Origin: Methanovulcanius yangii | Lineage (GTDB): Archaea > Halobacteriota > Methanomicrobia > Methanomicrobiales > Methanomicrobiaceae | DNA: 64,000 bases | Direction of reading: 5' to 3' | Assembly (NCBI RefSeq): GCF_018687785.1 | Contig: NZ_LTBL01000001.1 | Span: 1,975,780-2,039,779, forward strand | Shown: piece by piece, positions 18,779 to 50,515 of the stretch | Position numbering within the stretch: position 1 is the stretch's first letter | How the letters are laid out: the number at the start of each line of letters is the position of its first letter | Notes under the pieces: model-generated | What the model was told of the DNA's origin: nothing | The model's database searches: none | What the model saw: only the letters and a program-made list of their open reading frames with translations | Position numbers and translations under genes: made by a program

Positions 18779-19915
18779 TTATGTCCTCATTGCGATGAAC
18801 GAAAAATAGTTGGTATACCGGCGGTCCCTGTTGATTTTTCCAGTGAAGAACAAACGAATTTCATCTGGTTTTTTAAAATTTGGCTGGTACGTCTTCTTCT
18901 CGGATATCTGTTGAAGAATTGTACCGGTGCCTGATTCTCTGATAAATTCTTCGAACTTGTTGAGAAATAATTTTGTTTGAGGGTAATACATCTCGACGAT
19001 AATGAGGATTCCGCCCGGGCGAAGTGCCATAAATATGCTTTTTAAGAGCTCCAGTACATCCTCTGTCTTCTCCGAGAACTGGATGAGGTCACGCATGCAG
19101 TTCTGAAAGATATGAAGGTTTGAGGTCCGGATCTCTGGATATTTTGCGATGATTCCTGCATTTCTGAGAGTGAGAATATTCAGGTGTCTTGAATTGGTGG
19201 TAATATTGAGACTTTCATTCCCATAGTAGTGCGGGCTTATAGACCGGATACATTCATCCCGTGTCTCGTCCCATTGGCTCTTTTCGAAGAAGGATACCGA
19301 GATGTGACGATAATTTTTCTGTTTTTCTGATATGAATTTCAACGTCCCCATGTACTCAGGGGCTGGGCCACAGCAATAAAAACAGATGCCTAGGTGATGT
19401 GAAGATGAATTTGAGAGATAATTGGGGGAAATTAGGAGCATCTCACGGTAGATGGTCTCGATGTAATAGGGGTAGTAGTACAGCAAATATGCATGTTGTA
19501 GGTGTGCATCGTTGTATTGGCCGCTAATCTGGAGACTACTCTGATTGAACCCCGAGATGAGGTCTTTGAGGGGAGCGGTGTATGCCTCCATGAGTTCGCT
19601 CACGTCCGAAAAATTGCCGTTCTCACAGAGGAGATGTGTTATGTGGTGGTAAGGGTCGTGGGGAGGGAAATCAGATCCAAGAACTGTCTCACTCTGGAGG
19701 TCAGCAATAATGGCGCAGACTTCATCGGCCTCACTGAATCGACCCATTTTCCTGAGGCATTTCTCTTTCTCGATATAGGCGAGGGGATAGAACTGGTCTA
19801 TCTCAATGGCAGAATCGAATGCGTTGAGCGCCTTCTCGTAGTTGTCGAGTCTAAGATATGAGGCCCCGTCATTCATCCACCCCTGAAGGGTCTCTGTATT
19901 CTCCGCAATCTCCAT
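18779..19915 (-). CDS. TPR protein with SAM-methyltransferase-like domain
   Basis: The 378-residue protein begins with two tetratricopeptide repeats (about residues 8-75, for example NYEKALNAFDSAIEIDQFYP). A second part resembles a class I methyltransferase. A glycine motif appears as CFYCCGPAPEYMG around residue 175, where the usual GxGxG is altered, and the later ALRPGGILIIVEMYYP around 295-305 is the typical motif after the acidic residue. The ending GKINRDRRYTNYFSFIAMRT is strand-like. Fusion of TPR to such a domain is unusual, and the neighbouring helicase has TPRs too. Either SAM binding or a degenerate fold is possible. It is 33 bases downstream of the helicase gene. Confidence 0.65.
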   Translation of the reverse strand: MEIAENTETLQGWMNDGASYLRLDNYEKALNAFDSAIEIDQFYPLAYIEKEKCLRKMGRFSEADEVCAIIADLQSETVLGSDFPPHDPYHHITHLLCENGNFSDVSELMEAYTAPLKDLISGFNQSSLQISGQYNDAHLQHAYLLYYYPYYIETIYREMLLISPNYLSNSSSHHLGICFYCCGPAPEYMGTLKFISEKQKNYRHISVSFFEKSQWDETRDECIRSISPHYYGNESLNITTNSRHLNILTLRNAGIIAKYPEIRTSNLHIFQNCMRDLIQFSEKTEDVLELLKSIFMALRPGGILIIVEMYYPQTKLFLNKFEEFIRESGTGTILQQISEKKTYQPNFKKPDEIRLFFTGKINRDRRYTNYFSFIAMRT

Positions 19916-19948: not shown

Positions 19949-21916
19949 TCAAAAGGCTGTTAACGTGCTCTGGTACGAAACTGTGCTCTCCGGGTCGTAG
20001 AGATTGTCCAGGCACCATTGGGGTGGTTTTTTGTAGACAAATTTCAGTTTCCCCGTCGCATCCAGATCTTCCATGACCGCTCGTAACTCATGGTACAGGC
20101 CATAATCTCCGATACCGCTCAGGTGTATCCATGCCCGTGAACGGGTCATGGCGATGAAGAGACGGTTTCTTTCGTGAATGTTTCCTTCCTTCTCTCCGAC
20201 AGCATCCAGACCAACGATATACACCATGTTCCCCTCGTTTCCCTTTGCACGATTAATGCCGCTTACCGTGACGGCATTGGGAAGAGAGAATGTGTCAGAA
20301 TACTGAGTTGAGATGTTGTTTTTTCCAAGACCTGCTGTAGCACTGATATAATTTGTGATGCCGTATTCCCACAACTTACTGCTCAAATCTATCAGGGACT
20401 GGTTGTTTTTTACAAGACTGACCACCAGAATATCGTCGGGGGAGAGGCCGTTATGGTCAATATTTTCCCGTATGGACTGTGCAAGACGTGCATATTCCTC
20501 TTCTCTGTTTGAAAAGAGCCGCACATTCATGAGGGGGCCATTCCAGGTCCAGGATATGGGGTTCGGAGATGTATGGCGGTTTCGGCTGAGTTCAATGGTA
20601 TTGCCGAACTTAAAAGCACCAGTCACCTCATATCCAAGGCCTTCCCATGTATCTTTTGTGGTCGGCCCAGAGAGCATACCTTCCCGGAAGTAGAGGCCCA
20701 TTCCGAGGGCATGGGCAGCCATCAGGATCTCTTTTGGGGTGCGGTAGCACTGGTCCATGATGTAGCTGCGGCCCTTCCCCTTCATGATATTTCTGAATTT
20801 TTCGCTGTTGCCAAATATCTCGGCCGCCGTGGGAACCTTCAGGCTGTTGATGGTCTGATATTCATCAAAGGCCCAAATGAGCCTACGGAGTTCAAGCCTT
20901 ACCGGGTCAAAGGGCCGGAGTGCCATATAGCAGAGCCAGAAGACCGGCTGTCGGTTTTCATAAAGGAGTGACGGGTCATCGACCACGAAGTCCTGTGCCT
21001 CATCCAGAAGAATGACATCATAGGACGGTTGGATGGTCACCGTCTTCAGCATGTCCCGGCATGCCATTGCAAACATTTCTGGCGGCGACGCCGGTGATAG
21101 ATCATTCACCTTTTTTGGTGTTAGGCCGTGGGCATTGCAGAGTTCCGAGTAGAACCCTTTTTTCCGCTGTCCCCCCCAGGAATGGAGAACCTCAAGGGTT
21201 CCCTGGTCTTCAGGGCTCCACCGGACGCCGTTGAGCCGGCAATATTTCTGGACCAGGCGGGTGATGTATCGGTACAGTGACTGGGAGAAGAACACAACCG
21301 CAATTTTACAGTCCGGGTGCTGGGCATGGATGTAGGCCGCCTTCTGGCAAAGGGTCAGGGTTTTGCCCGATCCTGCGATCCCGCGGATCAATTGCGGGCC
21401 GTTCGGGATATTTTGGATGATCCAGTTCTCATCGCTCATGGCGTCGATCTGCGAGAGACACTCGCTGATCTGGTCGAGCGCTTGGGGATATGAGAGCCCT
21501 GGTGGTGAATTGATGGGAGGGACAGGCCCCTGTAGATGTATTTTTTGTTCGGCCTCTTCCCTAAGCGCCATTGCAGCTTTGAGTAGGGACCTGTTACCAC
21601 TTTCCAGGACCTGGTCGAAACACACGATTGCCTCGTGGTAATTATTGCACTGGAGATGGGCCTTTCCAAGATTGCACCAGCTTGTTACATAATCAGGGTA
21701 ATATTCTATTGATGTCTGGTATGCGGATATTGCGTCTTCGTATCGGCCACATTTTCCGAAGGCCGTGCCGAGGTTATTCCAGACAAATTTGTGGGCAGGG
21801 TTGATTGCAATTGCCTTGTTGAATGCCTCGATTGCCCCAGGGTATTCCTTTTTCCCCAGTAGGTCCCTGCCTGCGAGGTTCCAATATTTTGCAGTGTTGA
21901 AAGGGCCGGTATTCAC
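19949..21916 (-). CDS. TPR-SF1 (UvrD-like) helicase fusion
   Basis: The 655-residue protein has three TPR units at about residues 8-110 (EYPGAIEAFNKAIAINP, YEDAISAYQTSIEYYP, YHEAIVCFDQVLES). An SF1A helicase follows: Walker A RGIAGSGKT near residue 180, FFSQSLYRYI, Walker B VILLDEAQDF near 304, YRTPKEIL, and the C-terminal VTVSGINRAKGNEG and RNRLFIAMTRSRAWI motifs near 547 and 588. It would move along DNA or RNA using ATP. Shared TPRs with the next gene suggest direct contact between the two products. The gene lies 45 bases after the coiled-coil gene. Confidence 0.85.
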   Translation of the reverse strand: MNTGPFNTAKYWNLAGRDLLGKKEYPGAIEAFNKAIAINPAHKFVWNNLGTAFGKCGRYEDAISAYQTSIEYYPDYVTSWCNLGKAHLQCNNYHEAIVCFDQVLESGNRSLLKAAMALREEAEQKIHLQGPVPPINSPPGLSYPQALDQISECLSQIDAMSDENWIIQNIPNGPQLIRGIAGSGKTLTLCQKAAYIHAQHPDCKIAVVFFSQSLYRYITRLVQKYCRLNGVRWSPEDQGTLEVLHSWGGQRKKGFYSELCNAHGLTPKKVNDLSPASPPEMFAMACRDMLKTVTIQPSYDVILLDEAQDFVVDDPSLLYENRQPVFWLCYMALRPFDPVRLELRRLIWAFDEYQTINSLKVPTAAEIFGNSEKFRNIMKGKGRSYIMDQCYRTPKEILMAAHALGMGLYFREGMLSGPTTKDTWEGLGYEVTGAFKFGNTIELSRNRHTSPNPISWTWNGPLMNVRLFSNREEEYARLAQSIRENIDHNGLSPDDILVVSLVKNNQSLIDLSSKLWEYGITNYISATAGLGKNNISTQYSDTFSLPNAVTVSGINRAKGNEGNMVYIVGLDAVGEKEGNIHERNRLFIAMTRSRAWIHLSGIGDYGLYHELRAVMEDLDATGKLKFVYKKPPQWCLDNLYDPESTVSYQSTLTAF

Positions 21917-22811: not shown

Positions 22812-23231
22812 TTATTCGATGTCGAGAGTTGTCTGACGTCCATTATCTCCGCTAATAAGGGAAAGGAGAAAACGGACAGGAGAATTAATCACAATAAATT
22901 CATCATAGAGCAGATCGATTCCTCGTTCGACATGCTTTCTGAAGTATACCGAGAAATAATATTGTTCGGAGATCTTCTTTTGAGATGCCTCAAATTCATG
23001 CTGAAGGATGAGAGCCCGATAGTGTGAATCGAAATCTCCTGAGAGGGTATAACGGTTGAATTCTCTTCCTGCTGAATCTTCAATCGGATATGAATACACG
23101 GATTCCGGAATTGAAAGCGACTTGCCGATTGCAAGGCGGCAAATAACATATGGGCGCAATCCTAATCTTGATTTTAATAAATCAAGTTTATCGGAGCGTG
23201 TTTTTGAGATGTGGATTTTATGAGAACCCAT
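22812..23231 (-). CDS. dndE: DNA phosphorothioation protein DndE
   Basis: The 139-residue protein has the DndE N-terminal pattern HISKTRSDKLDLLKSRLGLRPYVICRLAIGKSL, a small helical DNA-binding unit, then a C-terminal helical region. DndE acts with DndC and DndD to replace a non-bridging phosphate oxygen of DNA with sulfur at specific sites, and binds nicked DNA in studied systems. The gene starts directly at the dndD stop and is the last gene of the dnd operon. Length is slightly above the typical 110-130 residues. No dndA or dndB is adjacent. Confidence 0.88.
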   Translation of the reverse strand: MGSHKIHISKTRSDKLDLLKSRLGLRPYVICRLAIGKSLSIPESVYSYPIEDSAGREFNRYTLSGDFDSHYRALILQHEFEASQKKISEQYYFSVYFRKHVERGIDLLYDEFIVINSPVRFLLSLISGDNGRQTTLDIE

Positions 23232-25226
23232 TTACGCACCTCCAAAGAAGTATCCTTTTGAAATTTTGTTCGATTCGGAATATGAAAGCAGATAACTCTG
23301 TGAAATGCAGGGGAGAAGTTTCCTGTACAGTTCTTCATCGACCTCTCTGTCGTGCGAGAGGATGATGACCTGTGACCCGGCCTGTGGCAGGAATCTCGTT
23401 GCGACCTTATCGACATGGTCGGCATCGAGGCGGGCAAGAAGTGAATCTACGATAATGGGCATCGTCGTTTTCCCTATTCGCGAAAGAGCCCAGAGTATCG
23501 ACAAGGAGAGAATTTCCTTTTCCCCTGCTGAGAGGAGCTCTTTTTTTACTTCTTTTCTATCCCTATCGAAAAGGAAAATTTCGAGCGTTATTGGATTGAT
23601 CTTCAACGATGCAATCAAATCGTTCTTGTTTTCAAGCCGTGAATGCATCTCCATGACGAGCTGTTCCAATTCCTGGACCCGTGATGCAAGCATGTACTCC
23701 ATATACTCGTCCAGAGTCTCCTGCATCCGCTCACAAAGGCTAATTTTTCTGAAATCTTCTTCGGCTTTAAGGCCGCTGATCTCAATTTTTTCCAGCTCTT
23801 CCCTGATGATTTTTGTCTCGGAGGTAAGACTGAACTGCTCGTTTTCAAGTGTCGAGAGGGCGACCTTATTATTGCTGATGTCGTCTTTTATTTGCAGAAT
23901 TTTCTGTAATTCATCTTTTACTATCGAGTCGTCAGGTATTGTCTTGAGTTGTGACTGATATCTTTTCATTGCCAGGTCGAGATTCTGACGTTCGATGAGT
24001 TTGTCTTTCAATTGAATTCTGCCCTTCTCTTCAACCTGAGAAAAGATCTCTTCAATTTTTAGAAATGTTTCATTTGTAACATCGTGGATGAGAGTGGCAT
24101 TAGAACAATTCAACCGTTCGTCTTTCAGAGATGAAAATTCAGCACGGACCTCTTCGATAACCCGGTTATACATATCATCTTTGAGAATTGGTTTGAAGGA
24201 TTCGAGACGCTGGAACACTCTACTTTCCGCCTGTTCAACAATGCGGTTGCTATTGGTATTCTCTTTAATTTCTTTCTCCGCTTTCAGTGCCTCAATGGTT
24301 CGTTCGACAAGAGGTTTTGCAAGGACAAAAGAAGTGTAATTACAGACTTCTGCAATCTCGTCGGTGAGACTATTGACCCGTTCTTTTGCAAGAGCGAGTT
24401 CCTCTCCGATAGTCTGTCGTTCTTTTGCAATTGATCCTGCCTTTCTCTGAAGTTCGTCCTCAATATTTTCAATATTATGTTCTTTATCCTTGATTTCTCC
24501 ACTGAGGTCGGCTATGATTCTAATATTTTCCTGAATGAGTGAATTGTTCAGTTTTACTTTGGAGTCAAGTTCCTGGATCCTTTCGACCGTGGCCTTGTTT
24601 TTTATTGATTTTCGCTTAATTTTTTTCTCGAGGGTATCCAAGTCGCCCTTCAGTGTCTCGTATTGCTTGAGACCAATGAGGTCCCGTGCAGCATCTCTGA
24701 GAATTTCTTCGGCATTATCTCCAGAGGTTAATTCTGCAAGCCGTTCCCCATCAAAGAAGAAGTAATCGGTAATATAGGGAGGAACAAGCGAGGAAATATA
24801 GTCCTGCCAGTATTCCTGGGAGACAATCTCGAGGGGGATATTATCCCGCATAATGGAAAATGACTCATTGACCCTTCCGTGCTCATCAAGGCTCCAGGAT
24901 CTCTTGAGAGTTATTGAATAAGTCGGAAATACGTCTTCCAAGAGAAGCGAGACTTGTACAAAATATCTCGAATCCTTCTCTAACACTGAATATTTATTCC
25001 TTGCATCTCGAATAAAGGAGTCATACCGCTTTTTTGGAAGTGCCTGTCCCTGATACTGGATGCCGAACAGGCAAAGCTTGACTGCTTCAAAGATGGTTGT
25101 TTTTCCGGCTCCGTTCATTCCCCCAATCAGAATAATCGGGTGGGAAGGTGACCTGGTCGAGAAATCCATTGAATGAAGTCCACGGTAATTCTTGAAATTA
25201 CAAAGCTGAAGTTCGAGGATTTTCAT
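23232..25226 (-). CDS. dndD: DNA phosphorothioation ATPase DndD
   Basis: The 664-residue SMC/Rad50-like ATPase starts with LELQLCNFKNYRGL and Walker A IGGMNGAGKTTIFEAVKLCLFG. A long coiled-coil middle (about residues 190-510) follows, with a signature and Walker B region near the end (LLSAGEKEILSLSILWAL and TMPIIVDSLLARLDADHV) and the usual ILSHDREVDE. DndD supplies ATP-driven DNA opening or nicking during sulfur insertion. Its ATG overlaps the dndC stop by 4 bases, showing translational coupling. The coding sequence is visibly AT-richer than the flanking core genome. Confidence 0.92.
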   Translation of the reverse strand: MKILELQLCNFKNYRGLHSMDFSTRSPSHPIILIGGMNGAGKTTIFEAVKLCLFGIQYQGQALPKKRYDSFIRDARNKYSVLEKDSRYFVQVSLLLEDVFPTYSITLKRSWSLDEHGRVNESFSIMRDNIPLEIVSQEYWQDYISSLVPPYITDYFFFDGERLAELTSGDNAEEILRDAARDLIGLKQYETLKGDLDTLEKKIKRKSIKNKATVERIQELDSKVKLNNSLIQENIRIIADLSGEIKDKEHNIENIEDELQRKAGSIAKERQTIGEELALAKERVNSLTDEIAEVCNYTSFVLAKPLVERTIEALKAEKEIKENTNSNRIVEQAESRVFQRLESFKPILKDDMYNRVIEEVRAEFSSLKDERLNCSNATLIHDVTNETFLKIEEIFSQVEEKGRIQLKDKLIERQNLDLAMKRYQSQLKTIPDDSIVKDELQKILQIKDDISNNKVALSTLENEQFSLTSETKIIREELEKIEISGLKAEEDFRKISLCERMQETLDEYMEYMLASRVQELEQLVMEMHSRLENKNDLIASLKINPITLEIFLFDRDRKEVKKELLSAGEKEILSLSILWALSRIGKTTMPIIVDSLLARLDADHVDKVATRFLPQAGSQVIILSHDREVDEELYRKLLPCISQSYLLSYSESNKISKGYFFGGA

Positions 25227-26620
25227 GTTATCCTCTCCGTGGATTCCTTCATTTCCTTGAGAATCTCTGTCTCAATGACATCTTCAAGTCGGTTGTATAT
25301 CCCATGTCTTCTTGATAAACCGGAGAGGTCATCTTCGATGATGAGTAGTTTATCGATGAGGTCGGGGGGGACCTCATGGGACGTACATATCGTTTGGAAG
25401 GTTTCAGCATGGACCCCTGCCTCCATTTTTAGGAGATGTTCGATATAGCGTTCGCCTGCTCCGCATTCTGTGAGAAGCGTGTGAATCTCTTCAATATCAT
25501 CTCCCTCATATATCCAGAGACGAATAATCGCCTCGACTTCTTCGGGAGAGATGAGGCTTACCCCAAATTCCTCAAACTTCTCCTTCAGGTTCCCGGACTG
25601 TGTTTGGAGAGCAATGACCCGACGGAATATTTCATGGCGGGTATCAAGGGTGAACGGACCATAGACTTTGTGGCCAAATCGGACGAGTCCTTCATATTCG
25701 TGGCCAAGGATATCGGCGTAGACTTTATGCTTTTTCTCGTCCTTTCTCCATTTTTCCCGGTATTGTTTATCGTCCCGGATGACAAACAGCCAGTCCCTCA
25801 ATTCCTTGAGTGGCAACAGCCATGTTTCTCCATCCTCAATATAGGCCATGATTGAGCGGTCCTTTGGGACAACCGTACAAACCCAGCATCCCATTCTTGA
25901 GGCGCCGCTTGCATCCTGCTTAGCATCAATAATGAATTGTACATCATCCTCATCCTTACTGTAGCATTTCATCAGGAATTCCTTGTCATCGCCCCACGGA
26001 GACGGGGTATTGATAAGATAATCCCATACTTCTCCGTCTGCCCAGTCGGTGATGGGGGCATAGATGAGGCCACCTTTGATGTCATTATGTTGAGAGAGTT
26101 TTGTTCCGGCAATATTGTATTTCTGAATCGTCCTGTCCCTGTTTTGACTTTCAGCTGTCCGGATACCGAGAAGAATGATGACTTCTCCGCTTTCCTTAAT
26201 TTTCTCGGTCACGAATTTGTTCATTGGGCGAATTTTGAGACGATCCGTACACCATCTGAACCATCTGTTTGGTGAGGGGTAGCCGCGACCAATGAGGTTG
26301 ACCCAGAATGAGTCCCCGAGTTGAGGGCGGATTATGACTGCCTGAATTGGCAGATCGTCAATTTCTGCCTGTTCATTGATCATTGTGCAGATATCCTTGC
26401 GACGTTTATCTGCAATAGGGGTGTCAACAAGAGTGTCCGATGAGATGACCCAGATTTTTTTGAACCTTTTGTGTTTGGGAAGATCCCTTAGCATCTCATA
26501 TGCAAGCTGGGTGATAGCTGTGGAGTCCTTTCCTCCGGATAGCCCGATGATCCAGGGACGATCATCCTGAAGATAGATTTCTTCCATCTCTTCAAGGGCT
26601 GATTGTTTTTTCTCTCTCAT
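25223..26620 (-). CDS. dndC: DNA phosphorothioation sulfurtransferase DndC
   Basis: The 465-residue PP-loop ATPase of the PAPS-reductase superfamily has the P-loop IIGLSGGKDSTAITQLAYE near residues 24-42 and a long-range RTAESQNRDR motif. Cysteines in RWFRWCTDRLKI and GCWVCTVVP can carry the Fe-S cluster and activated sulfur. DndC transfers sulfur delivered by a cysteine desulfurase to DNA. No desulfurase (dndA/iscS) lies in this window, so a chromosomal IscS must serve. It begins the dndCDE unit and is separated from the upstream DUF262 gene by about 140 AT-rich bases that may contain its own promoter. Confidence 0.93.
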   Translation of the reverse strand: MREKKQSALEEMEEIYLQDDRPWIIGLSGGKDSTAITQLAYEMLRDLPKHKRFKKIWVISSDTLVDTPIADKRRKDICTMINEQAEIDDLPIQAVIIRPQLGDSFWVNLIGRGYPSPNRWFRWCTDRLKIRPMNKFVTEKIKESGEVIILLGIRTAESQNRDRTIQKYNIAGTKLSQHNDIKGGLIYAPITDWADGEVWDYLINTPSPWGDDKEFLMKCYSKDEDDVQFIIDAKQDASGASRMGCWVCTVVPKDRSIMAYIEDGETWLLPLKELRDWLFVIRDDKQYREKWRKDEKKHKVYADILGHEYEGLVRFGHKVYGPFTLDTRHEIFRRVIALQTQSGNLKEKFEEFGVSLISPEEVEAIIRLWIYEGDDIEEIHTLLTECGAGERYIEHLLKMEAGVHAETFQTICTSHEVPPDLIDKLLIIEDDLSGLSRRHGIYNRLEDVIETEILKEMKESTERIT

Positions 26621-26761
26621 TTAGTCACTCAAAGTTTGTTGTGTATTATTTGTGGTTTTCATCATATAGAAGCGTTCGGAAGTGTATGTTTGGGTTGATT
26701 TTTCAATTTATTGTAGATTTATATCTCTATTAACCAAGAAGAGTGAAAATAAAATATTTCT

Positions 26762-28564
26762 TTATATTTTATTAATTTCTAAAAGGGTGGCTACAATACT
26801 TTGTGTTCTTTCATTTATTTCATCTTGGCCCCACTTTTCTTTTGATAGAATTTCTTTATTGATCGAAAGAGCAGATGTTAATTTTGTCTTTTTCCCTTTT
26901 TCTCCAGCAAAACATTTTCGTCCTAAATTCGAATTGTAAGCTGTCAATGTCAAATTTCCAAATTTGTGCGTAATGTTATTACGAATTTCTACCGCCTCTT
27001 TATTTTCTTTGGCATCTAAATCAGAAATCCAACATTGGTCCAATTCTGTCCCGCCTTGTGGTAGTATATGCTCAACTGTCCAGTATGGCTTTCCTTTATC
27101 GTTTTTATCCCAAAAAGGTTTCAATTCTCTTAAATTTTCATTTTGATTTTCTTCTATTTGTATAAGTAAATATTTTGTAGCTTTAGGATTGGTTAAGTAA
27201 ATATCTCCTTCTATTGCAGTTTTAAATTCGTCTTCTGAAGCGAGTTTATTTTCTGAAGCCTTTTGAATCTCTTCTTTGATATTTTTGGATATGAGTGTTG
27301 CATTTAAGCACTTCTCAATAACATCCGTAAAGATGCTATCCAAATCTCTAACCTTTGGTTTATCGCAAATATGCCTACGTATAAAATAGATTTTTAAGAA
27401 ATCAATTACTTCTATTAATTCATCATCATTTATTTCCTTAATTTTAAGGAATAATAAGAGTGAATAAGAAGGTATTGCACTAATATGTGACAAATCATGT
27501 AATTTTTTGGTACATATATCAATATTTTCAGGGAATTGTTCAACAGAAATTTGTGGGTTAATTAAAGTTGAATAAATATCAGCTTGTTCTTTTAAACCAT
27601 TCCATAATTTTTCCACATTAAAATTAATAATATCTTCATAAATCCCAATAATATTTGATTTTGTGGCTATTTTTGGTTTTTTGCTATCTTTGAATATTTT
27701 GGTTTCATAAGTATGTTTGTTAGCATAATAGAAATGTCTGAAATAATTTTCTTTATCTGTATTCGTTCCAAGGGTTTCAATATGTTGTCTCCATTCTTCT
27801 TCAATTTTATCGATATCCCCGTTATTTTCGTCCAATTTAGAGAATAACTTATTTTTTATTATGTCAACCACTGATAATGCTTGACCTCGGTTATTTAATG
27901 TTTCAAATATTAGATATGCATTTGAATCATTATCTGGAATAATTGCGACCGAGATTGAAGAAAAAATATTATCTGTAAGATTGATCAAGTCTTGCATTTT
28001 ATTATCATTTATTCTAGAATAATAATAATCAAAACATTTGTATATCTGTCTTCTCTGCATATTTTTGGGTTCTTCTTGGGAATAATCCTTAACCATGGAA
28101 TTGAATAGCAAGTATCGATATTCGGAATAATTATTTTTTATTAATGATAGATCGATTTTTGTATCATAATTCTTGCCATATTCGATAATTAAGGCTTTTT
28201 TTATCTGTTTTTTTGCAGCAAAATAATTTCCAAGTTCATCTTCTTCATCAGTTTCATCTTTATATGTAACATATAATTCTTGCATTTTTTTATGAATTGC
28301 TAGTAATAGAATGGTTATTGATGTTAATCGCTGTTGACCATCGATAATTTCATATTTTTCCTTTACAACTTCTGAATCATTCCCTTTTTTCAGAAGGACA
28401 ATTGTCCCTAAAAAATGTCCCTGATTATTTTTTAAGTCCTCAAAAAGGGCTTCCCATTTTTCTTTTTTCCAAACATAGTTCCTTTGATATTTTGGGACTG
28501 AAAATTTGAAATTATCCTCCACCAATAGCTGGTTGATTGTTTTATCTTTTGGAGTGACAGCCAT
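26762..28564 (-). CDS. DUF262-DUF1524 protein, SspE/GmrSD-like modification-dependent nuclease
   Basis: The 600-residue protein has an N-terminal DUF262 domain with VPKYQRNYVW (about 24-31) and the nucleotide-binding EIIDGQQRLTSI (about 75-86). A long helical middle leads to a C-terminal DUF1524 HNH-type domain with VEHILPQGG (about 496-504), FGNLTLT and YNSNLG. This layout is that of GmrSD and of SspE, which senses phosphorothioate DNA and nicks unmodified invaders. Placed between the Dnd genes and their restriction cassette, an SspE-like role is a strong inference. The gene is strikingly AT-rich compared with all its neighbours, a sign of separate transfer. Confidence 0.85.
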   Translation of the reverse strand: MAVTPKDKTINQLLVEDNFKFSVPKYQRNYVWKKEKWEALFEDLKNNQGHFLGTIVLLKKGNDSEVVKEKYEIIDGQQRLTSITILLLAIHKKMQELYVTYKDETDEEDELGNYFAAKKQIKKALIIEYGKNYDTKIDLSLIKNNYSEYRYLLFNSMVKDYSQEEPKNMQRRQIYKCFDYYYSRINDNKMQDLINLTDNIFSSISVAIIPDNDSNAYLIFETLNNRGQALSVVDIIKNKLFSKLDENNGDIDKIEEEWRQHIETLGTNTDKENYFRHFYYANKHTYETKIFKDSKKPKIATKSNIIGIYEDIINFNVEKLWNGLKEQADIYSTLINPQISVEQFPENIDICTKKLHDLSHISAIPSYSLLLFLKIKEINDDELIEVIDFLKIYFIRRHICDKPKVRDLDSIFTDVIEKCLNATLISKNIKEEIQKASENKLASEDEFKTAIEGDIYLTNPKATKYLLIQIEENQNENLRELKPFWDKNDKGKPYWTVEHILPQGGTELDQCWISDLDAKENKEAVEIRNNITHKFGNLTLTAYNSNLGRKCFAGEKGKKTKLTSALSINKEILSKEKWGQDEINERTQSIVATLLEINKI

Positions 28565-28664
28565 ATATTAAAGTTTGATTTTATGTGTAAAAATATTCCG
28601 AATTTATTTATATTTAAGTTATGTAAAATTAAAAAAATGGAATTATTATTATTTGTGGTCTCTA

Positions 28665-29105
28665 TTACAGGGCGCCCAAAATTTCTTTTAACTCTAATTC
28701 AAGCTGTTTAGGGTAATTCGGCCCATATCTTTCCATATGTGACTTAATGATCTCAATGCCTTCCTTGGCATACTCTTCTGCATCTTCATACACGCTTTTT
28801 TGATCATCAAGACAGAGGATATCTCCCGTTTCCTCGATTCCCGAAGCAACGATACACCATTTTTCTTCATTCGTCATAGCTTCTACAGAGACATTGGACC
28901 GTCGTTCATTCGGTTTAAAAATGCTTTTCGAGCCTCTGTTTTTTCCAATTGCATACGCAAATAAAAAGAGGTCTTTTTGCCTTTTTCCTTGGAAAATTGT
29001 CGATGAATTTTTACCCAACCATCCATTCTCCTTATTCTGATAATAATCAGCATGGTCTTTGCTATACGATGCATTACGGGGGACCTCAAATGTCTTAGTT
29101 GCCAT
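28665..29105 (-). CDS. Dnd-associated small protein (dnd system-associated protein 4-like)
   Basis: The 146-residue protein resembles the Dnd-associated family I recall as protein 4: an N-terminal charged part, the block QKDLFLFAYAIGKNRGSK, the NEEKWCIVASGIEETGDI strand-helix and a C-terminal helix EEYAKEGIEIIKSHM. No catalytic motif is evident. Its start overlaps the end of the upstream ATPase gene by 11 bases, so it belongs to the restriction cassette 28665-34520. The family match is from memory of the pattern, not from a search. Confidence 0.62.
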   Translation of the reverse strand: MATKTFEVPRNASYSKDHADYYQNKENGWLGKNSSTIFQGKRQKDLFLFAYAIGKNRGSKSIFKPNERRSNVSVEAMTNEEKWCIVASGIEETGDILCLDDQKSVYEDAEEYAKEGIEIIKSHMERYGPNYPKQLELELKEILGAL

Positions 29106-31083
29106 AGGATATCAACTCCGATTGGGTATTCTCTCCATCCTCAACAATTTTGTAATTGTTTGAAGGTAAGAGAAATGCGTTAAGATTATGCTCAACATGC
29201 TGGTCGTATTCAGTGGGCGTTACGAGGAGCATAAGTTGCGTTCCACGAAGGAATTTCGGAAGTTCATTCGTTATGTAATCTCTGTGCTCATCGTCAATTT
29301 TGCCGAGTGGGGTGTCAATAATTACCGGTGCCTGAAATCCGGAAATGGTCATCAGCGAACTCATGAATGAAAGACCAAGGATCATGTATTCTCCTGCGGA
29401 TAGATCGTTTATTGCATTATAGCCGTTCACATGTGAGATTCGAACCTGATAACTATCGTCGATATCAATATCTGAAAAAGCATTTTTCTTCCGAATCAGA
29501 GTCATGAAATTCTTCTTCGTATTCGTTTCGACCTGAGTACGGATTTTTCCCTTGATGATGGATTCCGTGTTGGATAGGATTTTTTTGGCATCCTGAACAA
29601 ATTTGAGTTTGATTTTTATTTTCTCAAATTCCTTTTCTTTTCTGGTTTCGGATTCCCATTCTTCCTTTAATTTTTCTTTCATTTCAAAAAGTCGTTTGAG
29701 TTCTTCCTGTAATCCGAGAACCTTTAGTCCATAATGCGAAATTGATGAGTTTAACTCCTTCAATCTTTGTTCTTTTAATTTTATTTCATCAATATTATAT
29801 CCTTCTATCTCTTCTCCTATCTGGATTTCTCTTCGTATTTTTTCCTCCCGTCTTTCCATCAACTTATCAATTTTCGCATTTTTTTCATCAATCATTTCCG
29901 GGAATTTTTTAATATCGTTAAGAATCGTAGTTAAGGCATATTTCCCTTCGACTCCCTTTTCCGCATATTCAGAATATTGGAGTGATTTTGCGTATTCAGT
30001 TAAATTTTGTCGCGTTTCTTCGTTCAATTGAGTCCCGCATATGCACTCGCCCTTCTCAAGTAACTCACCAATGAGATTTTCACGGATGGGTGGAGGGAGT
30101 ACTCCCCTTTCAACCTTGGATTGAATAATGTCGTAACTTGCTTCGATTGTATCTTTTAGATAAATGAATGGAGCTTTATCTACGAGAAACGCATTTCGAT
30201 CGGCAACATCTACTGCGATGTCATTATCCAAAGCAGATATATCTTTTTTTACAAGGTCTCTTTCCTGTGCGAGACGTGAAATATTTTTATGGCTATAATT
30301 TTGAAGATAATCATCAACAAGGATTTTTTCTCCCTCTAAATCGTCCTTTTTTTGTTCGAAGTCAATAATCCCCGTCTGACTTTTTGTAATATTATTTTCT
30401 ATGAGTTCAAGCCTCTTCTCTAACTCCTGAACTTTTGGATTGTTACTCCTTGCACTTTTCCGCAGTTTCTTTTCGGATAAATCCAGGCTTGCTGCAACAC
30501 GGTACAGAATATCCAGTTGAGATACCTGGTCTATCGCTGCTGCGATTTTTCGAGGAGAACTCACCTTAAAAAATTCTCTCAATTGCTCCCCATCAATAAA
30601 AAAGAAACTCCGAAGCGCTTCTGGGAGAATATTATTGATTAATACCTGTGCATCGGGTGTATCAATCACCTTATTCTGTCCATTTTCCTCATAGATTACC
30701 CGAATTTTATCGGTATATGATTTTTCCATAAAACCAAGGGCAGATTTTCCGATTTCACGAGAGCGTGTGATACTCCATGGTCTTCCATCTGCTGACAAGA
30801 GGATGGTAACTTCGGCTGCGACAGTCTGTCCAGGTCTTAATTCTTCAAGTGCCCGAGTATTGATTAATGGCATACTGTCGGGTGTGGCTTTGTCATTTTG
30901 CTTGTGAGCTTCTATGCCATAGAGACACCAGGTAATTGCATTCAAAAAATTCGACTTACCTGCACCATTGCGACCATGAACCAGGCAGACATTTTTATCC
31001 TGCTGATAGGTGAAATCGATTTTTTGAGTTCCATAGTACTGGCGATAATTGTTCAGTTCGATGGATTGAATGAAGGATTTCAA
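29095..31083 (-). CDS. SMC-like (DndD-like) ATPase of the phosphorothioation restriction cassette
   Basis: The 662-residue protein shares the DndD layout. IELNNYRQYYG is followed by Walker A VHGRNGAGKSNFLNAITWCLYG and FFFIDGEQLREFF, then two coiled-coil arms around a central KGECICGTQL (a half zinc hook with a C-x-C), and the C-terminal DLSAGEYMILGLSFMSSL signature with Walker B PVIIDTPLGKIDDEH. It is not a copy of dndD, since arm sequences differ. In archaea a Pbe cassette partners DndCDE for restriction and includes such an ATPase; I infer this is its equivalent. It abuts the 64-residue gene upstream. Confidence 0.82.
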   Translation of the reverse strand: MKSFIQSIELNNYRQYYGTQKIDFTYQQDKNVCLVHGRNGAGKSNFLNAITWCLYGIEAHKQNDKATPDSMPLINTRALEELRPGQTVAAEVTILLSADGRPWSITRSREIGKSALGFMEKSYTDKIRVIYEENGQNKVIDTPDAQVLINNILPEALRSFFFIDGEQLREFFKVSSPRKIAAAIDQVSQLDILYRVAASLDLSEKKLRKSARSNNPKVQELEKRLELIENNITKSQTGIIDFEQKKDDLEGEKILVDDYLQNYSHKNISRLAQERDLVKKDISALDNDIAVDVADRNAFLVDKAPFIYLKDTIEASYDIIQSKVERGVLPPPIRENLIGELLEKGECICGTQLNEETRQNLTEYAKSLQYSEYAEKGVEGKYALTTILNDIKKFPEMIDEKNAKIDKLMERREEKIRREIQIGEEIEGYNIDEIKLKEQRLKELNSSISHYGLKVLGLQEELKRLFEMKEKLKEEWESETRKEKEFEKIKIKLKFVQDAKKILSNTESIIKGKIRTQVETNTKKNFMTLIRKKNAFSDIDIDDSYQVRISHVNGYNAINDLSAGEYMILGLSFMSSLMTISGFQAPVIIDTPLGKIDDEHRDYITNELPKFLRGTQLMLLVTPTEYDQHVEHNLNAFLLPSNNYKIVEDGENTQSELISYGN

Positions 31084-31278
31084 CTATAGCACCTCCCTGT
31101 AAATTCGATCGATTATTGAGAGGTATTTCGCTTCAATATCAGCTGGTCGTGGATTTCTGTGGTACATATCAATTTCATACCGCATGGCCTCACGGATCAG
31201 CTTACGTATCTGCGGATCTGTACAATGCTCGTCAATCGTCTCAAGAATTAAGGAATTGATTTCATACTCTGTAACCAT
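31084..31278 (-). CDS. Small acidic helical protein of the Dnd restriction cassette
   Basis: The 64-residue protein is all-helical and charged: EYEINSLILETIDEH, DPQIRKLIREAMRYEID and the C-terminal ADIEAKYLSIIDRIYREVL. GGTGAT four bases before the ATG at 31278 decides this start over an in-frame GTG at 31287. It sits exactly between the helicase and the ATPase genes with no spacing on either side, so it is probably a subunit or adaptor of the complex. I do not recognise a family. Confidence 0.65.
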   Translation of the reverse strand: MVTEYEINSLILETIDEHCTDPQIRKLIREAMRYEIDMYHRNPRPADIEAKYLSIIDRIYREVL

Positions 31279-31287
31279 GTTAATCAC

Positions 31288-33381
31288 CTATATCAGACCG
31301 TATTTTTCCTCGATTTTATGAACCTCTCCACAAACCTCGGCGCAGTTGATTGCGTCAGTGGCAAAAATTCTGACTCTTTTCAATTCTTTTTCAACTAAAC
31401 CCCTCGCTGCATCCTCCGTGTAGTTTCCGGAGAACATGTTCGGCAAAACGGAGATGTCGTAGATAACAGCCATCTCCTTATCCGGTGCCCTCCGGAGTAC
31501 CCTCCCTCGGCGTTGTATGTACTCTTTCGGGTTCCCCGAACTCGAAAGAAGAATTGCATTCCGGGTGGAGGGGACATCCACTCCTTCATCCAGGCACCGG
31601 ATAGCAACAAGAACATTATAGACTCCCTTATCAAAATTTGAAAGTAGATATTCACGTTCTGTCATTCCATGATACTGCCTCTCCTTTTTCCTCGCATTCT
31701 CAGTGTTGGTAAATTTGTGCTGGATGATGGTACCCTGCTCTCGAATAATGTCCTGTGCGGTTTCGATTTGCTTTGGTGCGCAATATACAAGGGTATGAGA
31801 AATATCGCCTTCTTTTAAGAGATTGGTGAGAAGATCTCTGAATGCAGGATATTTGGTGGACGAATTGTTGACAATATCCTGCCTTTTTAAGAGGAATTTT
31901 TCCAGCTTTGCTATCTCGGAAGTAGTCCTCTTTTTTCTATTCATCAGAACTGCAATTTTCCCACTGAGCAGAAGATATTCATCCATGTCTTCCGTGCTCA
32001 GTTCAACAAAGATGGGATGATACTGATATGGTGCAAGGTAGCTTTTCCCTGTTTCCGGGTTGATCTCGGTAATTGCCCGTGAGAGATCAAAGGAGTAGAC
32101 AATCCCTCCAAAATAGGTCATCAACTCTTCCGTCCCTTCCTCATCGAGGTATCGTTCGGGTGTTGCACTGAGGCCGAGACGATATTGGTATATGTCCTGT
32201 AAGCCGGCCAATCTCTTTGATGAACCCATTCCATGAATTTCATCTCCGATGAGGAGGATGGGCACATTTGCCTCTTTCATGGTGGAAATGAATTTTTCAG
32301 ACGATATTGTGTCATGAGTAGTCATGACGATAAACTGGTTTTCTTTCCCCAGTTTTTGATTGAGGATTGCTCCCATGACCTGGTCGTTCCACTTGGTGTT
32401 GATGCTGCTTGCATGGTAAAGCGGTAAATGGACCTCCATTTCTTCCAACGTGTCTTCCCATTGGCGACAGAGATGGAGGTACGGGCAGGATATTATCGTG
32501 AGTAATTTCTTCTCCCTCTCAAGAACGTTTTTCAGGGCAGAGATGGCCGTGATCGTTTTTCCGGTACCTGTTGCCATTTCAAAGATCCCTCGACGGTCAT
32601 GGGACAACCATGAATCAATTGCCTCTAATTGATAGGAACGAAGACGGATTTTTGGGTCATCATCTGGAGGATAGGTTTTTTCGATGAGTTTTTCAAGTTC
32701 TTCAAAAGAGGAAGGCGCTAATCGGATGATCTCCTTTTTTACTGCCTCTGGAAACGGGATCACCCTTGTCCGCGGAGAGCGGTCATTCCATAATTCATCA
32801 AAGTCGTTGATATCACATTCATACAGTTCAGAGTTGTCTTCCCAGCTAAAAAATACCTTGAATTTCTCTGAATTGTATTTCCAGCCCATTGCGCTCTCGT
32901 TGTTGGAACCACTGAATGTCAGGGTATTGCCGGCATTATCCTCCACAATTCCGACTTTTTGGTGGAGAATCTCCTTCCCGTATTGTTCGGATTCAAGGTA
33001 TCCAATCTTTACATCAAGAATTTGATTTGCAACGAGCCAACCAAGTATGGCAGCATGGTTTTTTGCCATCTGGTCCGGATTGTTTTCGAGATCATCAAGC
33101 AAAATACGACTAATGATGTTTTCCGGTGATTTCAGCCCTTCTTGTATTGCTTTATAGTCATTTGGTATAAGCTGGACATTGAGGATGAATTGCATATTAC
33201 CGCCGTTTTTGATAAATGCAATCAGGCCTTTTCCTGCAACGCTGAAGGAAGAAGAGGAGAAATATCCCGTTATTCGTTTATAGGATACGGACTCCCTGAG
33301 GACATTGATATAGAAGTCCTCCAGTATGTTATCCTTTTCAGAATTGTACACATGTTTTAGAGTGATATCTGGGAGGGCCAT
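31288..33381 (-). CDS. PLD-like nuclease/SF2 helicase fusion of the Dnd restriction cassette
   Basis: The roughly 697-residue protein joins a phospholipase-D-like nuclease domain to an SF2 helicase. The first has LHQKVGIV and then FSGSNNES around residues 139-162, the H-x-K and downstream Asn/Ser of the family. The helicase has Walker A MATGTGKTITAISAL near 265, ILLIGDEIHGMG near 377, LGLSATPER, and CLDEGVDVPS with YIQRRGRVLRR near 620. It resembles helicase-type restriction proteins linked to Dnd loci and would cut DNA lacking phosphorothioates. It overlaps the upstream gene's stop region; ATG 33381 is preferred to GTG 33390. Confidence 0.85.
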   Translation of the reverse strand: MALPDITLKHVYNSEKDNILEDFYINVLRESVSYKRITGYFSSSSFSVAGKGLIAFIKNGGNMQFILNVQLIPNDYKAIQEGLKSPENIISRILLDDLENNPDQMAKNHAAILGWLVANQILDVKIGYLESEQYGKEILHQKVGIVEDNAGNTLTFSGSNNESAMGWKYNSEKFKVFFSWEDNSELYECDINDFDELWNDRSPRTRVIPFPEAVKKEIIRLAPSSFEELEKLIEKTYPPDDDPKIRLRSYQLEAIDSWLSHDRRGIFEMATGTGKTITAISALKNVLEREKKLLTIISCPYLHLCRQWEDTLEEMEVHLPLYHASSINTKWNDQVMGAILNQKLGKENQFIVMTTHDTISSEKFISTMKEANVPILLIGDEIHGMGSSKRLAGLQDIYQYRLGLSATPERYLDEEGTEELMTYFGGIVYSFDLSRAITEINPETGKSYLAPYQYHPIFVELSTEDMDEYLLLSGKIAVLMNRKKRTTSEIAKLEKFLLKRQDIVNNSSTKYPAFRDLLTNLLKEGDISHTLVYCAPKQIETAQDIIREQGTIIQHKFTNTENARKKERQYHGMTEREYLLSNFDKGVYNVLVAIRCLDEGVDVPSTRNAILLSSSGNPKEYIQRRGRVLRRAPDKEMAVIYDISVLPNMFSGNYTEDAARGLVEKELKRVRIFATDAINCAEVCGEVHKIEEKYGLI

Positions 33382-33386
33382 GAATA

Positions 33387-34520
33387 TCACTCTGCGTCAT
33401 TGAGGAGGGCATCGATTCTTGCACGAAGGAGTTCTTCTTCAAGTTCCTCTTCGAAATGGCTAATGGTACTCTGTCCTCTGCCAGCTATCTCATGATCATT
33501 CATTGATAATTTGATCAATCTCTCAATTTCATCATAGTCGCCGTATTTTTTCAAGAATGTCTTTATTTCGCCGACTTTGCAACTTTTTAGATTCGCCCCG
33601 TACACCTTTTTGATCATGTATGCAAGCAGGCCATAGAGTTCCCTTTTCTCTGATGCCAGTTTTGCAACTTTTTGCTGATATGTACCAGAATATTCCTCTA
33701 ATTGAAGATCCCTGAATTTCCAGAGCCCAACCTTGTGAAGAATGTCGCACGCGTGTTCCTGGATGATATAATAGGTGTCCTCATAAACCTCCTCAATGAG
33801 CTGCAATACATTTCCTTCGTATTCCCAATTATCCTCGAGCAGGTTTGGAGAGACGTGCTTTTTTATCTCCCGAAGGACATACAGCAGAATGAAGAGATCG
33901 TCCAGATAGCCAAATTCCTCGTTATCCGGCATGACATCCTCTTCCAGGATGTAATAGCCCAACGCTGAACTAATGAGAATTTTTGTATGCCAGTCGGTAT
34001 AGGGATCATTGAGAATTTTGCATGCTAAATTGTAGAATGCCGGGAAAAATGAGACCAATTTCTTATCCGGTCCGGAATAACCCTGAATTCTGTTGATGAG
34101 GTATTCTTCATACGAAAGTGTGTCGGATATCGATGGGTTAATTTTTGAAAATATCTCTTTTTTATTGACTTCTTTTTCAGAGTTAATTTGGGTATCGATG
34201 GGAATATTCGTAGTGTTCGATTTCTTTGGTATCGGAGTTTTTCCTTGTTTTACAAGGAAATAGTTACGCGTCGGTTTGAGTAATGCCCCTCTTCCATAGA
34301 CTTTTTTAACAAAAAATCCATCATGTGATAATTTGGTGAGGCATCCATGGATTTCATTTTTATCGATTTTTTTGTTGTAAGAGCTGGTATATGCCGATGA
34401 GATCCAGTTTACGAGAGCTGTTTCCCCGATTTCATCTTCCGGAAAGGTAAGGGAAGGGAAGAGGAACACCAGCTGTACCATATCGACATCCATATCCTGG
34501 GCTATATCATGAAGGACCAT
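33387..34520 (-). CDS. DUF1232-containing protein, first gene of the Dnd restriction cassette
   Basis: The 377-residue protein has an N-terminal region resembling a winged helix (MVLHDIAQDMDVDMVQ to about residue 95), then a polar linker. A DUF1232 segment follows at about 175-215, with DWHTKILISSALGYYILEED and DNEEFGYLDDLFILLYVLREI, whose Asp/Glu pattern is typical of that small domain. The C-terminal half is helical and charged. DUF1232 proteins accompany several archaeal defence loci, and here it leads five genes with no real gaps. A sensor or regulatory role is inferred. The promoter should lie in the AT-rich bases 34521-34640. Confidence 0.7.
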   Translation of the reverse strand: MVLHDIAQDMDVDMVQLVFLFPSLTFPEDEIGETALVNWISSAYTSSYNKKIDKNEIHGCLTKLSHDGFFVKKVYGRGALLKPTRNYFLVKQGKTPIPKKSNTTNIPIDTQINSEKEVNKKEIFSKINPSISDTLSYEEYLINRIQGYSGPDKKLVSFFPAFYNLACKILNDPYTDWHTKILISSALGYYILEEDVMPDNEEFGYLDDLFILLYVLREIKKHVSPNLLEDNWEYEGNVLQLIEEVYEDTYYIIQEHACDILHKVGLWKFRDLQLEEYSGTYQQKVAKLASEKRELYGLLAYMIKKVYGANLKSCKVGEIKTFLKKYGDYDEIERLIKLSMNDHEIAGRGQSTISHFEEELEEELLRARIDALLNDAE

Positions 34521-45137: not shown

Positions 45138-46274
45138 ATGGAAAGAGTTTCAATATATTTATTTATTATAATTCTATATTACAATTTATTGTTTTTAAAT
45201 CAAGGAGATAATCTGCAGGAGACGAATATTTTGAAACTAAAAGCTGAACCAACTGGACTTGGCTGGAGAATGAGGTTTTCGGACGATGATAATCCAACAA
45301 TTGCATTCCAGGTGTCCATAAAGGATTTAATTTCGCTCTATCTTGGATTGGAGAAGGATGCATATGTTCATGATACTAAAATCGGACCTATTGGTCACAT
45401 ATCGATTAATACTGATTCGGATTGCTATGAAACCGTTTTCAATGGAAAGGAGATATCGCAATCCACTGGTGACGTGATTTCTGCTATCCCAAATAATCTG
45501 TTTTTTCAATTGCTATTCCAGGAAGACTTAGGGTATTTGGAACAAAATCAGATTGCCTCCGCTGGCTTGGCGATTCAGAAGCGTTATGAAGGGGAAATAC
45601 AAGCCAATAAAGAAAAAGGCAATCCAGACATTTTGAAAAAACATGATGTTAGGGCGCTATGGCATTTTTGCCATATCGATAACATACCAACAATTTTGAA
45701 ATATGGGATAATTGCTCGTGATTACCAAAAATATTGTAAAATCGGGCCTCAACCCCTGTCCTTTGAAGAGATTTCAGATCCAACCATTCAGAAAACCCGA
45801 AAGGAAAAAGGATGCCATAGATATGTGCCATTGTATTTCGCCAATGCTGCACCCATGGTTTATCGGATTCAGAAAGCAGATAATGAAAAGGGATTACAGG
45901 ATATCGTTGCCCTTGAAATTGACCCCGAAATTCTCTTCGTCAACCACAAAAAGATTACAAGGATGAATGCAGGTTGCAAGGATAATCTGGATTTTTCTTC
46001 GGATTTGAATTCATTGTCATCATTCCAGTGGGATCTTATTCATTTGGAACCGAATGTGGCCTGGAACTGTGAAAAAGAATTGAACCACTTCCGTGGTGCA
46101 GAGGGTTTAATTAAATACATCATTCCTCCTTCGTTTATTAAGGGAATTCATGTTCACTATGATTCAGTAAAAACAAGAGTACGAGAGATGGTAGATCCAG
46201 ATAAATCAATTCGAGTGAAAAAAAGTTTGGAGAAAGGAGGGGTGAATACTCACGACCTCTTTGACAAGGAATAA
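45138..46274 (+). CDS. darT: DarT-type DNA ADP-ribosyltransferase toxin (DUF4433) with N-terminal extension
   Basis: The C-terminal 200 residues of this 378-residue protein are a DarT domain: ALWHFCHIDNIPTILKYGII (NAD site), RYVPLYFANAAPMVY, and the catalytic-glutamate region CEKELNHFRGAEGLI. DarT attaches ADP-ribose to thymidines of single-stranded DNA and stops replication, including that of phages. The first 165 residues are a separate strand-rich domain I do not recognise. The ATG at 45138 gives an N-terminal hydrophobic stretch overlying TATA-like sequence; TTG 45231 with an upstream GGAG is a possible alternative. The macrodomain antitoxin follows after 5 bases. Confidence 0.85.
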   Translation: MERVSIYLFIIILYYNLLFLNQGDNLQETNILKLKAEPTGLGWRMRFSDDDNPTIAFQVSIKDLISLYLGLEKDAYVHDTKIGPIGHISINTDSDCYETVFNGKEISQSTGDVISAIPNNLFFQLLFQEDLGYLEQNQIASAGLAIQKRYEGEIQANKEKGNPDILKKHDVRALWHFCHIDNIPTILKYGIIARDYQKYCKIGPQPLSFEEISDPTIQKTRKEKGCHRYVPLYFANAAPMVYRIQKADNEKGLQDIVALEIDPEILFVNHKKITRMNAGCKDNLDFSSDLNSLSSFQWDLIHLEPNVAWNCEKELNHFRGAEGLIKYIIPPSFIKGIHVHYDSVKTRVREMVDPDKSIRVKKSLEKGGVNTHDLFDKE

Positions 46275-49800: not shown

Positions 49801-49896
49801 CCGGTCCGGCCCCCCCGCTCCCGGATCGCACGGGGCGCCGGTCAGGGCCGCACAGATCAGCCGTTCGAGACCGCGTTCGGTGGTGTCGGTGGTCAT
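46888..49896 (-). CDS. hsdR: Type I restriction endonuclease subunit R (HsdR)
   Basis: The 1002-residue motor-nuclease has an N-terminal PD-(D/E)XK domain with LPVATFELKNSLTKQT (catalytic E-x-K around residue 173). An SF2 translocase follows: Walker A HSAGSGKSNSIAWLA near 320, IIIDEAHSSQGGKSS near 430, FTATPKN, and the C-terminal KFQTGYDEPLLHTMYVD and TLSRLNRAHP motifs. A helical C-terminal assembly domain ends at 46888. HsdR binds the M2S complex and cuts DNA after translocation. It is about 610 bases downstream of the six-gene unit 50507-61091, in the same direction, with repeats in the gap. Confidence 0.95.
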   Translation of the reverse strand: MTTDTTERGLERLICAALTGAPCDPGAGGPDRVTERPGDYAAGWICGSPADYDREYCVDLVQLSTFLTATQPKAAEALALGEDGPTRRKFLARLQGEITKRGTIDVLRKGIEHHAHHIDLFYATPSPGNTAAKEKFGKNRFSVTRQLRYSRDVTQLALDLALFINGLPVATFELKNSLTKQTADDAIQQYRRDRDPREKLFEFGRCAVHFALDEHEVWFCTHLKGKESWFLPFNRGWNDGAGNPPNPNGLKTDYLWKQVLTRRSLTNILENYAQIIETKDEKTGKKKKSQIWPRYHQLDVVRQLLADAQEKGAGNRYLIQHSAGSGKSNSIAWLAHQLVPLEKDGKKVFDSIIVVTDRRILDSQIRDTIKQFTQVGAMIGHANQSGDLRRFIAENKKIIITTVQKFPYIVDNMGKDHRDRTFAIIIDEAHSSQGGKSSAALAMTLSEAGAEEDDETIEDTINRLIESKKLLPNASYFAFTATPKNKTLEIFGAPVPQPDGKVQHVPFHHYTMKQAIQEGFILDVLAHYTPVQSYYKLIKTVPGDPEFDTKRAQKKLRRYVESHDHAIRLKSEIIVDHFHEQVIAQNKIGGQARAMVVTNGIERAVQYFHAVRDYLAERKSPYKAIVAFSGEHEYGGGKVTEASLNGFPSGDIADKIQNDPYRFLICADKFQTGYDEPLLHTMYVDKTLAGIKAVQTLSRLNRAHPQKHDVFVLDFMNDADMIQTAFANYYRTTILSDETDPNKLHDLKADLDSYQIYADAAIEDLVALYLGGAERDRLDPILDACVAIYREELDEDGQVDFKSKAKAFLRTYGFLSAVLSYPNPAWEKLSIFLNFLVPKLPAPQSDDLSRGILEAIDMDSYRAEKQAMMMIQLPDEDAEINPAPASGGGHRPEPEMDRLSNIIRAFNDQFGNIPWTNADHVHKLITEDIPARVAADTAYQNAKKNSDKQNARIEHDKALGRVMNAILKDDTELFKQFMDNESFQRWLKDTVFGLTYEDPATG

Positions 49897-50147
49897 CGTA
49901 CCCTCCGTAGCTGCAATTCCTCGCCTACATCCATTGTTTTTATCCTTGACCTACGGGAAATTAAGTATTCTGCCTTGATTTACTCTCTTCTCCTGAAAAA
50001 TAATCATAATCAGACGATTGGGAGGTATATTCTGTTCTTTGCCTGAATGAAGGGATAATTAAAATTATACTCAATGAAATGCCGTCTGATCTTTCTGGAA
50101 TAGTGAAGATACCGGTTCATTCCATGTGACGTGAGTATCAGAGAATC

Positions 50148-50515
50148 ATCAAGTACCCATCAAGTAAAATGGAACGTTCACATATCTGTCTGTTTTCAGA
50201 AAAACGCAAGAATTGTTATAATTCGAAGACTTGGATGGGACGGCGAAAAGGGAGGTATCAAGTACCCGTCAAGCAAATTTGGCGAGGTTATAGCAGATAA
50301 TATGTTCAATATCTCCTGGAGATGGAGCAATTCTCCACGATACCGGCGCTAAATGGCGGCAACTGTCAAGCATCCATTGGACATCCGTCAAGCATCTATC
50401 AAGCATCCATCAAGCAAATTTAGGGAGCCAATTTTCGTGCATGTCTTGAAAAAACGTGAGAATTGAGGTATTTCCTAAACGTATTGAAACATTGAGAGGA
50501 TCACGATCAAGCATC
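50148..50515. repeat. Dispersed CAAGCATC/CAAGTACC repeats between hsdR and the AlbA_2 gene
   Basis: The 610-base gap 49897-50506 has no supported gene. It contains imperfect copies of TCAAGTACCCRTCAAGYAAA at about 50148-50173 and 50256-50282. A dense cluster at 50364-50424 has five CAAG-type units of about 10-11 bases. A further CAAGCATC (50508-50515) overlaps the stop of the AlbA_2 gene; on the minus strand the unit reads GATGCTTGA, exactly the last codons plus stop of that gene. Confidence 0.6.

Follow-up and report, generated by a model that had tools for sequence, protein, structure and literature searches.

We studied a 64,000-nucleotide stretch of the genome of the archaeon Methanovulcanius yangii (contig NZ_LTBL01000001.1, positions 1,975,780 to 2,039,779; hereafter the window), in which a Dnd module for DNA phosphorothioate (PT) modification and a PbeABCD restriction cassette are separated by a gene for a 600 amino acid (aa) DUF262-DUF1524 protein, a predicted nucleoside triphosphatase joined to an HNH nuclease. 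We favor, at a probability of about one half, the reading that this protein would be a second, largely independent restriction layer gated by nucleoside triphosphates (NTP), over the reading that it is a PT reader of the DndI type. The reason is that its subfamily is found habitually inside modification-based systems, that the slot it occupies is optional and interchangeable, and that one of the copies has decayed (see below). All the genes of the locus were intact and located in the negative strand in the order DUF1232, pbeA, pbeB, pbeC, pbeD, DUF262-DUF1524, dndC, dndD and dndE. The genes and coordinates of dndCDE, of the five-gene cassette and of the 600-residue gene between them were thus as the first-pass annotation, made from this sequence, had given them, except that the small cassette gene pbeB encodes 67 and not 64 aa.

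A slot at the dnd/pbe junction

The product of the DUF262-DUF1524 gene (26762..28564, negative strand) matched the Pfam domains GmrSD_N (PF03235, 1.3e-37) and GmrSD_C (PF07510, 3.6e-16), both over cut-off. With a GC content of 28.8% the gene falls below the pbe and dnd genes (38-47%). Spacers of 100 and 141 bp set it off on its two sides, whereas adjacent pbe or dnd genes mostly touch or overlap; its earlier description as spliced between the modules was borne out in this respect. A natural empty site is the same junction in genome G254, from outside the order of M. yangii, where pbeABCD-dndCDE has the same order as in the window and pbeD runs 23 bp into dndC, leaving no gene in between.

A survey of the order, a methanogen order (probably Methanomicrobiales) of the phylum to which the haloarchaea also belong, comprised 232 genomes, 13 of which presented DndC; the threshold for the DUF262 subfamily was E<=1e-35. 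Members at this threshold were found in three genomes, those of the window, G198 and G504, and in all three the gene was inside a dnd-pbe locus. The G198 and G504 copies are both located between dndA and DUF1232, the former in the opposite strand and the latter in the same strand. A further copy, in G435, was reduced to 265 aa and to the DUF262 domain, with no PF07510 match, i.e., the HNH domain was lost while the dnd and pbe genes remained. The four occupied slots differ in position and orientation, and nine of the 13 dnd genomes lack the DUF262-DUF1524 gene altogether. Other genes can fill the slot: an AIPR-family gene in G262 (L173:5986-7785) and, in G428, a 201-aa gene that weakly matched Mrr_N and has a homologue in G435 as well. 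The slot was empty in G347, G042, G062 and G486 and, outside the order, in G011 as well as G254. Of the 232 genomes, 70 carried the broader PF03235 family, with about 96 occurrences in all, and only four of these occurrences were within the dnd loci examined. Among the plasmid records listed, DUF262 was found in 49 and DndC in 61, with none in both lists.

The slot genes of the window, G198 and G504 had 28-29% GC, lower than their neighbors in each case. In the phylogenetic trees the four slot proteins fell outside the free-standing clade (SH-aLRT, a likelihood-ratio branch support, 95) and presented long branches.

Motifs, fold and relatives of the DUF262-DUF1524 protein

Inspection of the 600-aa protein revealed the motifs P24KYQR, D75GQQR, E498HILP and H533KFGNL, which include all those that matter in the PT-sensing proteins SspE and DndI: P24-x-Y26-Q27, DGQQR at residues 75-79, and the HNH residues. 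Y26 and Q27 of the window protein correspond to Y25 and Q26 of DndI and to Y30 and Q31 of SspE, and PT sensing requires Y25 in DndI and Y30 and Q31 in SspE. An AlphaFold2 model built with 45 sequences had a mean predicted local distance difference test score of 86.6. The best fold match of this predicted model in the PDB was DndI (9JFL; E 2.8e-16, TM-score (TM) 0.59), followed by SspE (E 1.8e-14, TM 0.41) and BrxU (E 1.4e-4, TM 0.35-0.37). The profile search agreed with this ranking, DndI 9JFL being the best full-length PDB match (1.7e-27, residues 8-597). These parts indicate that the protein is most likely an NTP-gated HNH nickase that reads a mark on DNA, and gating by PT is possible. The name SspE-like in the first-pass annotation is second best, since DndI is nearer than SspE in both sequence and fold.

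SspE, the effector of SspABCD-SspE (PDB 7DRS, 20YV), shares the two domains and the key motifs; it is larger (771-818 aa versus 600 aa) and matches less well in both sequence and fold. The PT made by its partner SspABCD is single-stranded. No ssp cluster was seen in the window locus and none of the ssp partner genes was present among the genes scanned around the DUF262 gene; the SspD model gave three weak hits (best 2.6e-12), one of them DndC. The PADLOC name 'Orf5' was not used, because its models match DUF262 proteins embedded in dnd, BREX and restriction-modification (RM) loci alike.

The 80 closest relatives of the protein in GTDB genomes, with one representative per species, were compared with flanks of up to 10 kb. 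None of the 80 had dnd or pbe genes in these flanks. Weak PbeA matches beside five of them were set aside as general HKD or SF2-helicase similarity, as neither PbeC nor DndC accompanied them. Counts of other contexts were obtained with ten representative queries and are lower bounds, since some contigs end early. At least 23 relatives were located in operons of BREX (bacteriophage exclusion), and in 20 of these cases pglX and pglZ were the genes on either side; at least 17 more were near C5 methyltransferases (eight), in type I RM loci (five) or near a single HsdM-like gene (four); in the remaining 40 none of these modification-system markers was detected. These BREX, methyltransferase and RM contexts place the subfamily within modification-based systems at large. 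The members between pglX and pglZ (L062, L075, L087, L118, L122 and 15 other loci) came from diverse phyla and included one archaeon (L118).

All four tested motifs were conserved in 78 of the 80 relatives, and the PT-pocket motif was kept equally in the relatives embedded in BREX (23/23). The presence of the pocket motif in the window protein is therefore no sign of PT reading, and we rejected it as proof of PT sensing.

A possible independent restriction layer or phosphorothioate reader

In the favored reading, DndCDE would write the PT mark on the cell's own DNA and DUF1232-PbeABCD would be the restriction arm, directed at unmarked DNA, a complete PT-based antiviral defense system as far as the gene content indicates. 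The DUF262-DUF1524 nuclease would have been acquired horizontally and inserted where the two modules meet. Its N-terminal DUF262 domain would bind NTP through DGQQR and read the modification state of the DNA, and NTP hydrolysis would activate or silence the C-terminal HNH domain. The nuclease would then catch viruses escaping Dnd-Pbe, as interchangeable cargo of an accessory slot rather than as a protein obliged to read PT. There is a precedent that, by analogy, supports such a layer: BrxU, also a DUF262-DUF1524 protein, is encoded by a gene inserted in a BREX operon between brxC and pglX, and its restriction of modified phage DNA does not depend on BREX (PMC8565348). This GmrSD-type, type IV enzyme (PDB 7P9K), of a class defined by cleavage of DNA with modified cytosines, is like the window protein in that its gene is inside a modification-based defense operon; however, the sequence match between the two is weak and limited to the N terminus (2.4e-4), and the BREX-embedded members of the window subfamily are found between pglX and pglZ instead.

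Several results weigh against this reading. DndI, a PT reader, is a closer match to the protein in sequence and fold than BrxU is. Within the order the subfamily is confined to dnd-pbe loci, with all three intact copies and the truncated one located there; random placement would put them all among the 13 dnd genomes with p = 1.4e-4 for three genomes and 6e-6 for four, figures made optimistic by kinship and by the clustering of defense genes. Low GC is in part typical of the family, the relatives averaging 5 points under their flanks. Finally, a single origin of the four slot proteins was not rejected (approximately unbiased test, p-AU 0.487) and would fit a long association with dnd-pbe.

The ranking by sequence and fold, the counterparts of the pocket residues of DndI and SspE at Y26/Q27 and the confinement to dnd-pbe loci within the order would fit a reader of the DndI type, to which we give a lesser, though real, chance of being right. 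PT at the Dnd sites would then stimulate NTP hydrolysis and release, sparing self DNA, and one mark would serve two arms, Pbe and the nuclease. Such a nickase is known from Salmonella enterica Cerro 87, where the Dnd mark of IscS-DndBCDE-DndI is read by a DUF262-DUF1524 protein (PMC11662687, PDB 9JFL) of 596 aa with the P-x-Y-Q pocket and its tyrosine, DGQQR and HNH, motifs that are common to the wider family; in both cases the gene adjoins the Dnd module. The two systems differ in that DndI is bacterial and co-transcribed with dndFGH beside dndBCDE, whereas here the partner is Pbe and no dndB was found beside dndCDE. A search for DndH gave a HerA domain of an RM operon as its sole match (1.1e-4); since the control TIGR03237 was silent, this negative carries no information. 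Most relatives are encoded away from dnd, and DndI itself is a distant outgroup with about 17% identity to the window protein; a pocket shared with BREX-embedded proteins, the nine dnd genomes that do without the gene and the copy that has lost its nuclease domain likewise argue against a reader of the DndI type. The condition by which the first-pass annotation would be refuted, a gene found as often away from dnd, went mostly against it outside the order, where none of the 80 closest relatives was near dnd or pbe; within the order the association was without exception. The proposal of the first-pass annotation that Dnd marks are coupled to both arms is consistent with the shared locus and the recurring slot, and the pocket cannot decide whether PT is sensed.

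The nuclease could also be a passenger that occupies a defense-insertion slot without working with the locus, or a suicide effector freed when Dnd-Pbe is inhibited. The alternative occupants of the slot, AIPR or the 201-aa gene, and the decaying DUF262 copy would suit this explanation, and backup nucleases in Dnd neighborhoods have been proposed by Rakesh et al. (PMC10853773). We consider it improbable, for the copies of the window, G198 and G504 retain full length and all the catalytic motifs at about 29-35% mutual identity, which indicates purifying selection.

Components of the locus, other defense genes and meaning

The pbe genes, which in known PbeABCD systems mediate a PT-dependent block of viral DNA replication, were present in the order A-B-C-D, with homologues of PbeA and PbeC and two small ORFs, and profile searches agreed with the earlier labeling of the cassette as Pbe-like. 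PbeA (31288..33390, negative strand, as for the genes that follow; PADLOC 1.2e-228) combines a single HKD (phospholipase D-like) domain, with HxK...GSxN from residue 143, and a superfamily 2 (SF2) helicase with Walker A and DEIH motifs. PbeC (29095..31083; PADLOC 1.6e-167) is an ATP-binding cassette (ABC) ATPase. It has a CxC hook (KGECICGTQ, residue 347) that is missing from DndD; hence the ATPase first described as SMC-like corresponds to the CxC-type ABC-ATPase described by Rakesh et al. PbeB (31084..31287) had no match in family profile searches and was assigned by synteny and by its similarity to the syntenic PbeB of G198 (E 9.5e-17). PbeD (28665..29105; 146 aa) was similar to the syntenic PbeD of G198 (E 5.5e-49) and matched TIGR04062 below cut-off (3.1e-7).

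The modification module presented dndC, dndD and dndE. DndC (25223..26620; TIGR03183, 408 bits) with SGGKDS and CxxC motifs and DndD (23232..25226; TIGR03185, 402 bits) with a Walker A motif were over the curated cut-offs; DndE (22812..23231) was over the cut-off of PF08870 and, with 61.3 bits, slightly under that of TIGR03184. Neither dndA nor dndB was found near the dndCDE genes of the window, nor did they adjoin dndCDE in the nearest relatives, G371 (DndC 60% identical) and G254. The sulfur donor of Dnd modules is DndA or, as a substitute, IscS; outside the locus the genome has two good cysteine desulfurase homologues (best E 5.8e-107 versus the DndA of G198), which could supply the sulfur. 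In most dnd loci of the order (L041, L171, L172, L174, L180, L215-L220) dndC is preceded by dndB, a ParB-like gene with DGQHR; published haloarchaeal Dnd systems are described without DndB.

The DUF1232 gene (33387..34520; 377 aa, PF06803 over cut-off) heads the cassette and shares 4 bp with pbeA. In this archaeal clade it is the leading Pbe gene: it was located directly upstream of pbeA in eight methanogen-clade loci of the closest PbeA group, those of the window, G198, G011, G262, G347, G504, G428 and G435 (besides the window, L041, L172, L173, L174, L215, L221 and L222), and was absent in G042. The protein matched no PADLOC model and is outside the four-gene Pbe cassette as published; no description of it as a Pbe cassette gene was found in the open-licence main texts searched, and PMC10853773 does not mention it. 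DUF1232 may be a fifth Pbe component. The locus is otherwise like DndCDEA-PbeABCD of Haloterrigena jeotgali A29 (PMC6459918) in having dndCDE and pbeABCD in conserved order and in the sizes of PbeB (66 aa in A29, 67 aa in the window) and PbeD (152 and 146 aa); it differs in the extra DUF1232, the missing dndA, the position of pbe before dnd and the DUF262-DUF1524 gene between the modules.

Past dndE the window presented a 212-aa protein of unknown function, a helicase similar to tetratricopeptide repeat (TPR)-UvrD proteins (19949-21916), a homologue of which is also close to dnd genes in G291 (L218), and a TPR protein (18779-19915). A protein with a C-terminal DarT-like domain (45138-46274; PADLOC 2.3e-29) is possibly a further defense gene. 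A type I RM locus (46888-61265) contained an HsdR-like gene and, near it, an operon with four-base overlaps made up of hsdM, DUF262-DUF1524-DUF5655, SIR2, HerA, hsdS and a 495-aa gene. This second DUF262-DUF1524 gene (56980-59112) is located within a type I RM operon, and therefore both such genes of the window are inside modification-based defense loci.

Dnd with a DndI effector, Dnd with Pbe, and GmrSD-type enzymes within BREX are already known, so the first-pass impression of a new combination stands in part: DndBCDE-DndI already couples a Dnd mark to a DUF262-DUF1524 nickase (PMC11662687), and the trio of Dnd, Pbe and DUF262-DUF1524 seems undescribed, no description of the gene between the two modules having been found in the same body of literature. 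The reuse of the slot among relatives suggests that the extra gene is an added defense layer and not a wholly new system. We think it unlikely that in some methanogens one PT mark is read by both PbeABCD and a DndI-like nickase, a three-part PT defense system with readers of two folds; if true, its nickase would belong to a subfamily whose partners elsewhere are methylation-based systems. The Dnd/Pbe junction of methanogens appears as an accessory effector slot filled by different defense genes, and a single DUF262-DUF1524 subfamily is linked to BREX (pglX-pglZ), type I RM, C5-methyltransferase and Dnd-Pbe loci. Since the nearest solved structure is that of a PT reader and most relatives have no PT partner, the subfamily spans both possibilities of a testable question, i.e., whether these nucleases read the own mark of their host system or hunt modified invaders that escape it.

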